64,000 nt of DNA. Origin: Chitinophagaceae bacterium DXS (lineage in GTDB: Bacteria; Bacteroidota; Bacteroidia; Chitinophagales; Chitinophagaceae). Location: assembly GCA_030345135.1 (NCBI GenBank), contig CP128386.1:3806550-3870549 (forward strand), read 5' to 3'. The position numbers and the translations under genes are program-made. The notes beneath the pieces were generated by a model. It did not search any database. It saw nothing but the letters and a program-made list of their open reading frames with translations, and was not told where the DNA came from. Shown here piece after piece: positions 46,862-62,810 of this stretch (the stretch's first letter is position 1; every line of letters begins with the position of its first letter).

Positions 46862-47175
46862 GAACCACGGAGGCACGAAAGACACGGCGAAACACGACGG
46901 TTTTGCCACGAAGACACAAATACTCAAAGATGCACGAAGATTTTTAACCCACAGCAACACTGAAGCACAGAAGAAAGAACTCTAACCACAGAACTAAAGA
47001 AGTTTATTAAGGAGTTTCACATAAAAATATTCTGTGCTTCAGTGCCTCTGTGGCAAAACCTTCGCTTCGATAAACGTATTACGTATAACTTACAACTTAT
47101 AACCTCCCTTGGACTGTCATTTTCAATTTTCAAATTTCCCCGCCTGAATGACATCTGTCGGGCAGGAATTGTCCA
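46862..47175. repeat. Region of inverted and dispersed repeats
   Basis: GAACCACGGAGGCACG at 46862 begins a repeat shared with 55386-55424. CCACAGCAACACTGAAGCAC near 46952 is mirrored by GTGCTTCAGTGCCTCTGTGG near 47033. ACGTATAACTTACAACTTAT at 47080 matches the 39.3 kb and 57.4 kb repeats. No gene is seen. Confidence 0.65.
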
Positions 47176-55386: not shown

Positions 55387-55509
55387 AACCACGGAGGCAG
55401 TGCGGCACGGAGAAACACGACGATCATTTTCTTCCACAAACTTTGCGCTAAAGATATCGTCGTGCTGCTTTTCGCCGTGATTCTTTGTGCCGTTGTGCCT
55501 CCGTGGTTT
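55387..55509. repeat. ACCACGGAGGCA inverted repeat
   Basis: The left arm begins AACCACGGAGGCAGTGCGGC and ends AACACGACGAT. The right arm begins ATCGTCGTGCTGCTTTTCGC and ends GTGCCTCCGTGGTTT. Outer and inner ends pair well, and the middles less so. A single-arm relative lies at 46862-46904. The right end overlaps the glycosylase stop codon. Confidence 0.75.
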
Positions 55510-57424: not shown

Positions 57425-57506
57425 GGTAAGTGATAAGTTATACGTTGTACGTTTAAGCCCTTCGCTTAGAAAAACGTATAACGTATAACTTACAACGTAT
57501 AACTTA
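57425..57506. repeat. Inverted repeat between trxA and the metH C-terminal gene
   Basis: GTAAGTGATAAGTTATACGT then TGTACGTTT (57426-57453) is mirrored by AAACGTATAACGTATAACTT and the following ACAACGTATAACTTAC (57472-57506). It belongs to the family seen at 39.3 and 47.1 kb. The right arm includes the stop codon of the downstream-facing metH gene and is a likely hairpin terminator for both. Confidence 0.75.
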
Positions 57507-60173
57507 CTCCATATTTTGTCTCAGCCACTTCTCTGCTTCTTCTGCAGTCCAGCCTTTACGTTGGGAGTAATCATTCAACTGGTCCTGCGAAATTTTACCT
57601 ACGCCAAAGTACTGGCTTTTTGGGTTGCTGAAGTACCACCCGCAAACACTTGCTGCCGGATACATAGCCAACGATTCAGTCAGCTCAATACCAGTATTTT
57701 CAGTTGCATTTAAAAGATCGAACAATTTGTATTTCTCAGTATGATCCGGACAAGCGGGATAACCGGGGGCAGGTCTTATTCCGGTATATATTTCCTTGAT
57801 CAGTTCTTCGTTGGTAAGATGTTCATCCTTAGCGTAGCCCCAGTAATCTTTACGCACACGTTCGTGTAACACTTCAGCAAAGCCTTCTGCAAATCTGTCC
57901 GCCAGGGCCTGTAACATAATCTTGTTGTAGTCATCGTACTGGTCGGCAAATTTTTTCAGGTGAGGTTCAATACCGTGAATAGTAACGGCGAATGCACCTA
58001 TATAATCTTCTATGCCTGTCCCCTCCGGCGCTATAAAATCAGCAAGTGATAGATTTGGCTGATCCGCAGCTTTCTTCACCTGCTGGCGAAGGAACTCCAA
58101 TTTTACCGGCTCTCCATTATGATTTACGCGCACACTGTCCGCGCCCGTTTTTGTTGCCTCATAAAAACCGATAACACCTTTTGCCGTCAGCCATTTTTCA
58201 GTAACAATTTTGTCCAACAACGCGTTGGCATCGTTGTACAGTTTCGTTGCTTCTTTTCCAATTACAGCATCTTCCAGCAACTGAGGAAATCTTCCACCCA
58301 TTTCCCACGCAATAAAGAACGGACCCCAGTCTATGTATTTACGGATCTCGGCAAGATCGAACTCTTCAAAAACTTTTGTCCCAAGGAATGAAGGTTTCAC
58401 AGGTTTATACTCGCTCCAATCAACTTTTACAGCATTGTTTTGTGCATCTGCAAAAGAAATATATTGTTTGAACGACTGGCGCTTGCCAAAGTCATCTCTT
58501 AATTTCTGATACTCAGCTGCTACACCTTGTAAAAACGCGGGCTTGTTTTCATTGCTAAGTAATGATCCGGCTACTGTAACACTTCTTGATGCATCCAACA
58601 CATGCACAACTCCGTTACCATACTCAGGTTCTATTTTAACGGCTGTATGTGTTCTTGATGTAGTAGCGCCACCAATCAACAGTGGTTGTTTCATGCCGCG
58701 GCGTTTCATTTCCCGCGCAACATGCACCATTTCATCAAGCGAGGGTGTTATCAATCCGCTCAGACCAATAATGTCGGCCTTTTCTTTTTCCGCTGCATCT
58801 AAAATTTTATCAGCCGGCACCATCACGCCCATATCAATGATATCATAGCCATTACAGCCTAATACTACGCCTACAATATTCTTACCAATATCGTGTACAT
58901 CACCTTTAACAGTCGCCATTAAAATACGGGGTGCGTTAGATGTGTTACCTTGTTTCTCTGCTTCAATAAAAGGCGTTAACCAGGCCACGCTTTTCTTCAT
59001 TACCCTCGCGCTCTTCACCACCTGTGGCAGGAACATTTTACCTGCACCAAACAGATCACCCACCACATTCATGCCGTCCATTAAAGGACCTTCAATTACA
59101 TCCAGTGGTCGGGGATATGTCTGCCTTGCTTCCTCTGTATCTTCATCAATGTATTCAGTAATACCGTTTACCAGTGCATGTTTTAAACGCTCTTCAACAG
59201 ATGTTTGTCTCCACGCATCATCTTTCTTTTCCTCTTTACCTGTTGCTTTTACTGTTTCGGCAAAAGCAATCAATTTATCTGTAGCCTCGTTATTATCATT
59301 GTTCCTGTTAAAAATTACATCCTCACATAATTTTTTCAGCTCAGGTTCAATCTGGTCATACACCACTAACTGACCTGCATTGACGATGCCCATGTCCATG
59401 CCCGCCTGGATTGCATAAAAAAGAAACACGGAATGCATTGCCTCACGCACATGATCATTTCCTCTGAAAGAGAACGAAAGGTTACTAACACCACCGCTGA
59501 TCTTTACGAGAGGAAACTTTTGTTTGATAATGCGGGTCGCTTCAATAAAGTCCACCGCATAGTTATTATGCTCTTCAAGACCGGTAGCTATCGCGAATAT
59601 GTTAAGATCGAAGATGATATCCTGCGGATCAAAACCTACTACTTCAGTTAAGATCCTGTATGCTCTTTCACTGATGTTTACTCTTTTCTCCAGAGTATCA
59701 GCCTGGCCATTTTCATCAAAGGCCATTACAATAACTGCAGCACCGAAGCTTAAGCAGATTTGTGCCTGGTGGATAAATTTCTCTTCGCCTTCTTTTAATG
59801 AGATAGAGTTAACAATACACTTACCCTGCACACATTTTAATCCCGCCTCTATCACTTCAAATTTGGAAGAATCGATCATCACCGGAACCTTGGCGATATC
59901 CGGTTCACTCTGCAGGTAGTTCAAAAAAGTGGTCATCGCCTGCACACCGTCAAGCAATGCATCGTCCATGTTCACATCGACGATCTGAGCGCCGCCTTCT
60001 ACCTGCTGACGCGCAACACCAAGGGCCTCCTCAAATTTATTTTCTTTGATAAGCCTGGCAAATTTTTTAGACCCGGTAACGTTGGTACGCTCACCAACAT
60101 TCACAAAATTTGTCTCCGGCCTAACAATCAAAGGCTCTAATCCTGATAAACGTAAATATGGTTTAATGATCAT
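57504..60173 (-). CDS. metH: Cobalamin-dependent methionine synthase, folate/B12/activation part
   Basis: The 889-residue protein corresponds to E. coli MetH from about residue 340 onward. It has a pterin-binding barrel ([37 protein letters not shown]), a cap helical domain, the B12 domain ([19 protein letters not shown], with the cobalt-ligating histidine, and [11 protein letters not shown]), and the AdoMet reactivation domain ([15 protein letters not shown] near the end). The homocysteine domain is on a separate gene upstream on the same strand. Together they total 1224 residues, almost the E. coli length (1227). A GTG six codons upstream lies in a repeat, so the ATG giving [11 protein letters not shown] is used. 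Confidence 0.93.
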
Positions 60174-60186
60174 GATAAATTGTTTT

Positions 60187-60250
60187 GCCACTAAGACGCT
60201 GAAGCGAAAAGGTTAGCCACCAAGACGCTAAGACGCAAAGAAGCACAAAG
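60187..60250. repeat. Left inverted repeat flanking the GxxExxY gene
   Basis: GCCACTAAGACGCTGAAGCG, AAAAGGTTAGC and AAAGAAGCACAAAG match the reverse complement of 60745-60820 (GCCACGAAGACGCTAAGAC, AAAGGTTAGC, AAAAGAACACAAAG) with substitutions and small indels. Its outer end starts 14 bp upstream of the metH C-terminal gene. Confidence 0.7.
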
Positions 60251-60291
60251 TTTAAAACTGAGATCCCAAGTATGCAATGAAAAAAATTGCA

Positions 60292-60681
60292 TCAAAGGAC
60301 CATTCTTTTAATTCCATCCTTTATAAGTGGGACCGTAAAATTTATTATATATCCCAATCGTTTATTGCTCAAACGCAAATAACTCAGCAACTGAGCCTCC
60401 CAAACCGGATGATAGATTTCCTGCGCCTTCAACTCAACTACCACTAAATCACCTACTAATAAATCCAGTCGCAATCCCTCTTCAAACATTACCCCATCAT
60501 ACATGATCGGAACTTTTAACTGCACACTATGAGGAATATCCCTTTTATTCAATTCATAGCAAAAGCACGACTCGTAAACTTTCTCCAACAAACCAGGCCC
60601 CAATTTTTTATGCAAATGAAATGCAATATCAACAACCTGTTTACCGATCCATTCTTCTTCGCCACTTAATACTCTTACCAT
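60292..60681 (-). CDS. GxxExxY family protein
   Basis: This 129-residue protein has the name motif G30-LL-E33-KV-Y36 in HKKLGPGLLEKVYESCFCYE. RLDLLVGDLVVVELKAQE then gives a D...E-x-K arrangement like PD-(D/E)XK nucleases, and WEAQLLSYLRLSNKRLGYII and NFTVPLIKDGIKRM complete the family pattern. The function is unestablished, and a nuclease-like fold is inference. It sits between the two metH genes on the same strand and is flanked by imperfect inverted repeats of about 65 bp. Confidence 0.88.
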   Translation of the reverse strand: MVRVLSGEEEWIGKQVVDIAFHLHKKLGPGLLEKVYESCFCYELNKRDIPHSVQLKVPIMYDGVMFEEGLRLDLLVGDLVVVELKAQEIYHPVWEAQLLSYLRLSNKRLGYIINFTVPLIKDGIKRMVL

Positions 60682-60744
60682 GGCATGTTTTTTAAGTTTA
60701 GGGATTTCTTCGGGTTTTAGGCACTACGCCAATTCCAAAATTTG

Positions 60745-60820
60745 AAGCTTTGTGTTCTTTTTTGGCTTTAGCTAACCTTTCCTTTGAGCTTCTTTTTGTC
60801 TTAGCGTCTTCGTGGCCAGG
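60745..60820. repeat. Right inverted repeat flanking the GxxExxY gene
   Basis: AGCTTTGTGTTCTTTTTTGG then GCTAACCTTTCCTTTG and GTCTTAGCGTCTTCGTGGCC form the mirror of 60187-60250. Its outer end lies 5 bp from the stop codon of the homocysteine-domain gene. Confidence 0.7.
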
Positions 60821-60825
60821 CTTTT

Positions 60826-61833
60826 TTAATAAACTTCCTCCACTACAGGTAACTGCCTTGGCACAAATTTCTTCACTTGTTCTGCTATATGCTTAATATG
60901 ATCGGGGGTAGTGCCGCAGCACCCACCAACGATGTTCACAAAACCCTCCTTGGCCCACTCTTCAATAAAATGCGCTGTCTGGTGGGGTTGCTCATCATAC
61001 TCACCCATCGCATTGGGTAAACCCGCGTTGGGGTACGCAGATGTATAGCAGGAAGCAATCTGAGAAAGCTCCTCAATATGCCCGCGCATTTCCTGTGCAC
61101 CCAAAGCACAGTTAAGGCCAATGCTCAGCGGTTTCGCATGCTTAACGGAGATATAGAAAGCCTCGAGCGTTTGACCGCTCAGCGTTCTTCCGCTTGCATC
61201 AGTGATGGTACCACTGATCATTATCGGTAACTCCTTACCGGTTTCTCTAAAATATTTTTTAGCAGCATAAATAGCAGCTTTGGCGTTCAGTGTGTCGAAG
61301 ATCGTTTCGATCAACAATGCATCAACACCGCCATCAGCCAACCCTTTGATCTGTTCATAATAGCCATCAGCAGCTTCGTCAAAAGTTAATCCCCTTGAAC
61401 CCGGGTTATTTACATCCGGTGAAAGGCTCAGCGTTTTGTTCAATGGTCCGATAGCGCCAGCGACAAATCTGGGTCTGCCGTCTTTCTTCACATATTTCTC
61501 TACCGCTTTTCTTGCACACGCAGCAGCGGCTACGTTCAGTTCGTAAGCCAGCGACTGCATGTCATAATCAGCCTGGGCTATGTTGGTGCTGCTGAAAGTA
61601 TTTGTTTCAATGATATCCGCACCGGCTTCAAGGTACTCTTCGTGAATACCGGTAATTATGTCCGGCTGCGTAAGGCAAAGCAGGTCATTATTGCCTTTAA
61701 CATCAGTATGCCAGTCTTTAAACCGCTCGCCACGATAATCGGCTTCCGTTAATTTATGACGCTGGATCATAGTACCCATGGCACCGTCAATAATTAAAAT
61801 ACGCTCCTGCAAACATTCCTGTATTGTCTTCAT
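60826..61833 (-). CDS. Methionine synthase homocysteine-binding part
   Basis: The 335-residue barrel protein matches the N-terminal homocysteine methyltransferase domain of MetH. It has [20 protein letters not shown], then [39 protein letters not shown] and [19 protein letters not shown]. The zinc ligands are supplied by [13 protein letters not shown] and [12 protein letters not shown]. It demethylates methylcobalamin on the separately encoded B12 module to make methionine. It is transcribed first, with the GxxExxY gene and the larger metH gene downstream. Confidence 0.93.
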
Positions 61834-62090: not shown

Positions 62091-62810
62091 GGGTTTCACG
62101 CAGCGTGCGCGGAGAAGCAACGGCGCGGCGGATAATGCTGCGTCTTTGCCCCGTTGCGCCCGCTGCGAGAAAGTGAATGTTTCACGCAGCGAACGCGGAG
62201 AAGCAGCGGCGCGGCGGATAGGGTTGTAGCTCAGTTTTGTTTTCAGCGAGAAATTTTGGGAAATCCAGTATTTCGCTGCGTCTCTGCCCCGTTGCGCCCG
62301 CTGCGAGAAATGAAATTGTTTCACGCAGCGAACGCGGAGAAGCAGCGGCGCGGCGGAAGGTGCATCTTTAGCTCAGCTTTGCTTTTGGCGACAAATCTTG
62401 GGCTGCAATATGTCGCTGCGTCTTTGCCCCGTTGCGCCCGCTGCGAGAAAAGGAAATGTTTCACGCAGCGAACGCGGAGAAGCAGCGGCGCGGCGGAAGG
62501 TGCATCTTTAGCTCAGCTTTGCTTTTGGCGATAAATCTTGGGCTGCAATATGTCGCTGCGTCTTTGCCCCGTTGCGCCCGTTGCGAGAGAAAGAAATGTT
62601 TCACGCAGCGAACGCGGAGAAGCAACGGCGCGACGCGGCAGTTCGCTGCGCCGCCTTTTCGTTGCGACCGCTGCGAGAAAGAAATGTTTCACGCAGCGAA
62701 CGCGGAGTAGCAGCGGCGCGGCGGACATCGCTGCGTCTCTGCCCCGTTGCGCCCGCTGCGAGAAATAGCTGTTCAAATGCGCCCATTGCGAGAAAAGAAA
62801 GCTCTTTTAA
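62091..62810. repeat. GC-rich tandem array of alternating inverted units
   Basis: Unit A (TTTCACGCAGCGAACGCGGA, then GAAGCAGCGGCGCGGCGGA) starts at 62094, 62180, 62319, 62459, 62599 and 62687. Between the A units lies unit B (CGCTGCGTCTTTGCCCCGTT, then GCGCCCGCTGCGAGAAA), which resembles A reversed. Spacings are 86, 139, 140, 140 and 88 bp. The long ones add a shared 53-bp insert containing TTTAGCTCAGCTTTGCTTTT. The array is far richer in G and C than its surroundings. All six frames stay open across parts of it only because of the repeats. Confidence 0.88.

Follow-up and report, generated by a model that had tools for sequence, protein, structure and literature searches.

Inverted repeats bordering GxxExxY nuclease-family genes tend to follow the protein lineage: a candidate REPtron-like partnership

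A GxxExxY gene between inverted arms at the metH locus

The window, by which we mean the whole stretch of 64,000 nucleotides analysed here from Chitinophagaceae bacterium DXS (contig CP128386.1), carries a small GxxExxY gene between the two metH genes (Table 1). All three genes share one direction. The start listed for the metH C-terminal gene is a GTG inside the arm, and the likely start is an ATG near 60173. Each side of the GxxExxY gene holds one arm core of 44 nt, together with a weaker second copy. The class A arm motif, RCCACNRAGNCRCNRAG, is found exactly at 60216-60232 and, on the minus strand, at 60800-60816, and with one mismatch at 60187-60203.

Table 1. Features of the GxxExxY unit and its neighbours, in positions of the window
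Feature	Position	Strand	Basis
GxxExxY gene, 129 aa, TIGR04256/PF13366, PD-(D/E)XK nuclease family	60292..60681	minus	ORF, profile searches and AlphaFold2
Arm core, metH C-terminal side, AAAAGGTTAGCCACCAAGACGCTAAGACGCAAAGAAGCACAAAG	60207..60250	plus	84% complementary to 60782-60825
Degenerate second arm monomer, outer, metH C-terminal side	60187..60211	plus	Weaker copy
Inverted arm core, homocysteine-methyltransferase side	60782..60825	minus	Complementarity to 60207-60250
Degenerate second arm monomer, inner, homocysteine-methyltransferase side	60741..60768	minus	71% complementary to 60230-60257
metH C-terminal gene: pterin, B12 and activation domains	57504..60191	minus	ORF and profile search
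metH N-terminal part, the homocysteine S-methyltransferase gene	60826..61833	minus	ORF and profile search

An earlier note on this DNA had described imperfect inverted repeats around the 129-residue gene, and its description was borne out. Local alignment of the exact gaps between the coding regions gave an arm score of 53, against a mean of 19 and a maximum of 42 in first-order Markov redraws of the same gaps, none of which (0 of 5000) reached 53. The extents given in the note, 60187-60250 and 60745-60820, agree with about two arm monomers per side. The outer ends lie where it had placed them, one at a distance of about 14 nt from the probable ATG of the metH C-terminal gene, the other adjoining the homocysteine-methyltransferase stop. 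The ORF list likewise agrees that the unit contains no transposase. No recognised transposase family matched, PDDEXK_3 being the only family found even at E values up to 10, and no Rfam family reached its gathering threshold between 56000 and 64000. A chance meeting of two host repeats at metH was ruled out by the redraws together with the frequency of arms at other GxxExxY loci, given below.

Further class A near-matches, with one mismatch each, occur in the window at 46864-47054 and 55491-55507; one pair of them is inverted, about 120 nt apart. A tandem array at 62137-62632 (a 140-nt unit in 3.6 copies) is made up of TTTCACGC/GCGAGAAA-type segments whose orientation alternates and resembles, by eye, the type B arms of the GxxExxY copy at nuoF/nuoG in the same genome.

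The GxxExxY protein is a likely nuclease

The window protein belongs to both TIGR04256 (128.4 bits, cut-off 35) and PF13366 PDDEXK_3 (121.8 bits, cut-off 22), and its AlphaFold2 model has a PD-(D/E)XK fold with a pLDDT of 92.7. The best Foldseek matches of the model were lambda exonuclease and the Cas4-like SSO0001, none of them at E ≤ 0.001. With VIA-align, the nearest structure was SSO0001 (4ic1; Z 9.1), followed mostly by PD-(D/E)XK proteins; archaeal Holliday junction resolvases came out near Z 6, and a Z below 8 can reflect a common arrangement. A PDB profile search returned no match. In the 114 aligned sequences, window copy included, D73 and K85 are present in all and E83 in 112. The confidently predicted fold and the conservation of D73, E83 and K85 suggest that the GxxExxY protein is likely an active nuclease.

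GxxExxY matches were found in 39 of 59 genomes of the host's order, the own genome included. The part of the openly accessible literature that was searched holds almost nothing on GxxExxY or PF13366, and the comment texts of the TIGR04256 and PF13366 families might mention repeats. Six 16-base arm strings had a sole match in that same part of the literature, and it was unrelated.

Inverted arms are common at GxxExxY loci

The host genome (7.29 Mb, one contig) holds six GxxExxY genes, five of them with inverted arms. The left and right arms of these five elements aligned with scores of 57, 44, 74, 53, and 40, and those of the sixth copy (L001) with only 17. Scores between elements did not exceed 26, each pair of arms being private to its element. 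The other five proteins are 26-43% identical to the window copy.

Outside this genome, we sampled the best 80 of at least 526 confirmed relatives, taken from titled genome contigs, and a second set of 30 loci from relatives, one of which was L001 again. The arm test used 111 of the 118 loci with a GxxExxY match; the omitted loci were the duplicates L007 and L122 (copies of the window and of L001), the broken L011, and four with less than 100 bases of flank. Arms with a score of at least 28 bordered the GxxExxY gene at 79 of the 111 loci, in many phyla; the corresponding figures were 17 of 271 for other genes in these loci and 10.6% for 2000 mismatched pairs of flanks. The remaining 32 loci, L001 among them, scored below 28. 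As some of the 111 loci are orthologues at shared sites, each site was also counted once only, and arms were then present at about 60 of 82 loci. Several high-scoring control genes turned out to be second GxxExxY copies (L071, L093, and L098) or other arm-bounded genes, and the control rate is therefore more likely an overestimate than an underestimate.

The earlier note had also suggested that the unit chose the gap between cooperating genes, and in the wider sample the units favour gaps whose flanking genes run in one direction. Both neighbours were co-directional with the gene at 61 of 90 GxxExxY loci, compared with 113 of 257 control triples, and at about 42 of 67 when one locus was taken per site. 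Neighbour directions were read for 90 of the 111 loci, the neighbours being too far away at three and no usable neighbour being present at 18.

Some other genes in the sampled loci also lie between repeats. In one case, an AhpC-like gene (named by eye) is bounded by CCAC-type arms. An AAA_14/DUF4143 gene (L058, 6742-7905) sits in a 43-nt inverted repeat of another type, both arms of which lie within 20 nt of it. Two IS200-like Y1 genes near GxxExxY loci (L049, 2918-3334, and L058, 2733-3179) are accompanied by palindromes followed by GCTAGT, a REP-like pattern. Movement of the GxxExxY units by such nearby Y1 genes, seen at two loci, was considered; the Y1 repeats differ from the arms.

Arm sequence tends to follow the protein lineage

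Among 132 arms of 66 GxxExxY loci (score of at least 30), the best period was 8 in 81 and 9 in 33. By eye, the commonest arm has an outer end of A/G-CCAC and repeats CCAC-RAAG-RCRC-NAAG. We assigned arm types by fixed expressions at 90 loci with a score of at least 26, the expressions for types B to D having been worded after the arms were viewed in tree order. Type A (CCAC) accounted for 55 loci, which makes CCAC..AAG the prevailing sequence, followed by type B (TTTCnCGC; 8), type D (GTCnGA/GATT; 4), and type C (CAGAT; 3), with 19 loci of other sequence and one ambiguous.

On a protein tree with 114 rows, 3 changes of arm type, the minimum possible, suffice for the 70 typed loci. Shuffled labels required 14.6 on average, and none of 200 shuffles needed as few as 3. 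When 'other' was treated as a fifth state, 16 changes were needed. For the number of its rows, the tree rests on few columns, and 17 of 111 inner branches are starred; the broken copies L037, L088, and L119 were omitted from it, and the duplicates L267 and L273 from the type test.

Because types B to D had been worded with the tree order in view, we also ran a test that uses no types. Over 3939 pairs of loci at different sites, arm similarity rose with protein identity, with a Spearman coefficient of 0.417, the largest value among 500 permutations being 0.168. In the 1171 pairs from different named phyla, the correlation was 0.21, with a p-value that ignores non-independence. Host background fails to explain the type, since the host genome combines types A (L002 and L005), B (L006), and D (L004), and L003 fits none. 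In the Flavobacterium set at the asnS/rpoN site, arms of the same element are no more alike than arms between species, and strict matching of left and right arms is therefore not universal. Strict left-right concerted evolution everywhere was considered; it is clear in the host genome and not in this set. Protein lineages tend to have their own arm sequence.

Arms are scattered through the genome without the gene

The class A motif occurs 67 times in the host genome (2 for the reversed control), and the window-type arm, allowing up to three mismatches, 44 times (control 0). Forty stretches around such sites held single arms in intergenic DNA as well as tandem arrays, whose repeats measure roughly 82-90 nt. 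Among 60 motif sites in these 40 fetched stretches, with some pairs counted from both ends, an inverted partner at 60-360 nt and a score of at least 24 lay on the inner side in 16 and on the outer side in none; at a score of at least 28, the numbers were 11 and none. As partners lie on the inner side only, the gene-less doublets share the outward-CCAC layout of the gene-bearing units. Across 59 genomes, the host included, gene and motif showed a modest co-occurrence, any motif being present in 18 of 39 genomes with GxxExxY versus 3 of 20 without (p 0.02). One genome (G016) has 34 motifs and no GxxExxY match.

Repeats so common without the gene would suit a reading in which the gene is a passenger, the repeats being spread by host recombination, replication slippage, or a different enzyme, for instance an IS200-like Y1 protein, and genes trapped between two inverted copies persisting by chance. 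It also gains from the other genes found between inverted repeats, namely 23S_rRNA_IVP, Y1_Tnp, AAA_14/DUF4143, and, once, the AhpC-like gene. We nevertheless consider it unlikely, as arm type tracks the GxxExxY tree across phyla and sites, the arm periods differ (7 nt for IVP versus 8-9 nt for GxxExxY), and both Y1 genes seen carry repeats of their own kind. The same tracking of protein lineage across phyla and sites makes recognition of the arms by the protein the best explanation.

Alternatively, the arms could matter as RNA, forming a stem around the gene in the operon transcript that is processed by RNase III or insulates the flanking genes, with a separate role for the nuclease. Folded as a transcript, the window unit gave a z of -4.27 (20 shuffles only) with the arms paired at its base, and the preference for co-directional gaps also fits. 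There is a precedent in the intervening sequences (IVS) of 23S rRNA, which have complementary ends and are cut out by RNase III, according to the accessible portion of one report (PMC4990558). An RNA stem alone would leave both the match between arm and protein lineage and the scattered intergenic single arms unexplained, and we regard this alternative as quite improbable.

Sites, inheritance, and mobility

The earlier note had suggested a search for an empty site at metH, and had counted the same gene and repeats at this locus in all relatives as evidence against its proposal. In the sample, some relatives have the unit and most lack it. The gap between the metH genes, taken from the best-scoring 29 of 54 matching relatives (that of L027 unread), was short and gene-less in 24 of the 29 loci. 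It contained a broken GxxExxY copy in G029 and another ORF in three relatives. We take two of these ORFs to be ORF6N-like and DUF1016-like; the third is unrelated. Leftover CCAC-type arms persist in three of the gene-less gaps (L015, L021, and L034), and a class A match in L035, where an unrelated ORF fills the gap, may be due to chance. The empty metH sites were not close enough in nucleotides to the occupied ones for a target duplication to be read.

Other GxxExxY genes at metH were found in Bacteroidota (L047 and L053, with both neighbours, and L052, with metH motifs on both sides) and in Verrucomicrobiota (L107, with both neighbours, and L079, with one neighbour at a contig end). The Bacteroidota metH copies fall within one starred set of 12 rows, which also holds copies from other sites. 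Descent from one insertion is therefore likelier for them, and independent insertion in each genome was set aside as less likely. The Verrucomicrobiota copies are placed elsewhere on the tree, so a second metH origin is possible; two changes are needed, and the starred branches allow one. In G029, the better-kept piece shares 53 of 72 residues with L005 and 52 of 72 with L047, its nearest copies; those nearest to the short other piece come from other sites. The metH unit was probably gained by an ancestor and has since been passed on, with occasional loss; we infer a single ancestry.

Two further sites are shared between genomes. A GxxExxY gene follows nuoF in the host genome. Comparison of coordinates places one there in 8 of the 35 relatives from the same family as well, and in G003 the site is taken by an IVP gene. 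The arms at nuoF/nuoG are mostly of type B. Among the 26 readable gaps of 30, type B motifs occurred in eight, two of them gene-less (L275 and L293), and type A in one; none of 29 readable metH gaps held a type B motif. At asnS/rpoN, nine Flavobacterium-type loci carry the gene, eight of them with both neighbours and L075 with a single one; one copy among the nine is broken. All 30 loci of a sample based on asnS lack GxxExxY in the asnS/rpoN gap. In L237 and L238, the closest by AsnS to the Flavobacterium-type loci, this gap holds gene-less inverted stretches that by eye have the look of a 7-nt quasi-repeat.

We compared 13 pairs of GxxExxY genes, and dN was far below dS in all of them. Seven pairs share both neighbours, four share one, L052 and L053 both lie between metH genes, and no shared neighbour was found for L103/L110; dS was saturated in L040/L045 and L049/L058. 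At 1e-5, matches to the window protein were found in 4 of 72,556 plasmid records, and a set of 50,697 phage records gave none. Of the plasmid copies, two were read (L305 and L306), and both have arms.

These results divide the claim of the earlier note that the locus is a small mobile unit. The gene-less metH gaps, the arms found elsewhere, and the preference for co-directional gaps support it, and the shared sites, the 26-43% identity, the low dN, and the near-absence from plasmids and phages argue against recent mobility. A small active cassette that cuts at its terminal repeats would account for the inverted ends, for the many metH gaps without the gene, and for the occurrence of different lineages at different sites. 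However, the copies in the host genome are diverged singles, none near-identical to another, and some sites are common to more than one genus. Together with the dN values and the plasmid and phage counts, this makes an active cassette very improbable, and recent transposition was discarded as the principal reading. The evidence points to an old resident that has seldom moved and has sometimes been lost. Like insertion sequences and MITEs, the GxxExxY units have terminal inverted repeats and gene-less inverted pairs, but they differ in having no transposase family match and no near-identical copies in the host genome.

A proposed REPtron-like partnership of nuclease and repeats

In REPtrons, a TnpA-REP/RAYT gene is bordered by inverted repeats that also occur genome-wide and as inverted doublets; the genes within a genome are distinct, repeat and gene co-evolve, and the gene lacks signs of recent movement, as described in the accessible portions of two papers (PMC8266576, PMC3116915). 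The GxxExxY units resemble this arrangement in having a small enzyme gene with bordering repeats, genome-wide repeats, and inverted doublets. Within the limits set by the wording of the types and by the tree, gene and arms also co-diverge, and the gene behaves as a resident. The enzymes differ, as the GxxExxY protein is a PD-(D/E)XK nuclease and a gene for an HUH Y1 transposase is absent here. The repeats differ as well: those of REPtrons are GTAG-tagged palindromes, whereas the window arms are quasi-repeats without GTAG, complementary from arm to arm. We rate the GxxExxY unit as one that would work like a REPtron although it lacks the HUH enzyme and the GTAG palindromes, both among the features that define REPtrons.

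The reading that we find somewhat probable is an old resident partnership of gene and repeats, REPtron-like and built from unrelated parts, namely a PD-(D/E)XK nuclease and its cognate repeats. The GxxExxY protein would act on its own arms, a proposal strengthened by the match between arm type and protein lineage. The nuclease may recognise the arms of its own lineage, probably as a hairpin or as single-stranded DNA during replication or repair. By analogy with REPtrons, processing of the arms in such a structured or single-stranded form could enable their spread: cuts by the nuclease would allow the arms to be copied into intergenic gaps and, on rare occasions, the unit as a whole, the gene itself moving rarely. 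Within an operon, pairing of the arms in the transcript could enclose the gene in a stem, and this may render the insertion tolerable; such a stem might spare the operon or be a target of RNase III, as in the 23S rRNA IVS.

A partnership with its own repeats, if true, would give GxxExxY, a common family without a known function, a testable substrate. It would also explain a class of interspersed repeats, and would mean that the REPtron principle was invented a second time, with another enzyme.

A parallel in 23S_rRNA_IVP genes

The 23S rRNA IVS resembles the GxxExxY unit as a single small gene with complementary ends, its product being the S23/IVP four-helix bundle protein. The two differ in location and product, the IVS lying in an rRNA gene and the GxxExxY unit, with its PDDEXK_3 protein, between metH genes. 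We examined IVP genes of relatives outside rRNA and found inverted arms (score of at least 28) at 16 of the 29 loci tested (from a set of 30), compared with 3.4% of mismatched pairs. The best period of the IVP arms was 7 in 33 of 36, counted at a score limit of 26 (30 for GxxExxY), and thus differs from the 8-9 nt of the GxxExxY arms.

IVP genes also occur on cyanobacterial plasmids. Eight of the 23 matching records were read (L297-L304), and periods of 6-9 were tried. Arms were present in seven of the eight, with a period of 7 in six and of 9 in one, and no inverted arms were found in L303. Two of these genes separate cas6 from cas4, and another is placed between the two ribonucleotide reductase genes. 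Cyanobacterial short tandemly repeated repetitive sequences (STRRs) are usually 7-bp repeats, capable of forming hairpins, that lie between hupS and hupL among other places and whose function is not known, according to the accessible portion of one report (PMC2670836). STRRs share with the GxxExxY arms a short period, hairpin capacity, and a position between genes that cooperate, hupS and hupL being an example. With their usual 7-nt units, they resemble the IVP arms, unlike the GxxExxY arms. In appearance, the arms of L297-L304 look like STRRs. In the openly available text of the STRR papers that matched our search, no IVP term appeared.

We propose that STRRs are the arms of IVP genes, and the IVP parallel offers a direct test of this origin. 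A general class is conceivable, in which unrelated small proteins, GxxExxY and the IVP four-helix bundles, would each maintain and spread short-period arms of their own (8-9 nt and 7 nt, respectively) and favour operon gaps, with the STRRs as the arms of the IVP branch. We hold this wider proposal tentatively, as somewhat short of probable.

One IVP protein (L081, 6691-7071) gave a weak match to the bAvd-like family PF22296, at 21.8 bits against a cut-off of 40. We take bAvd to be an accessory protein of diversity-generating retroelements, to which L081 possibly links the IVP proteins.
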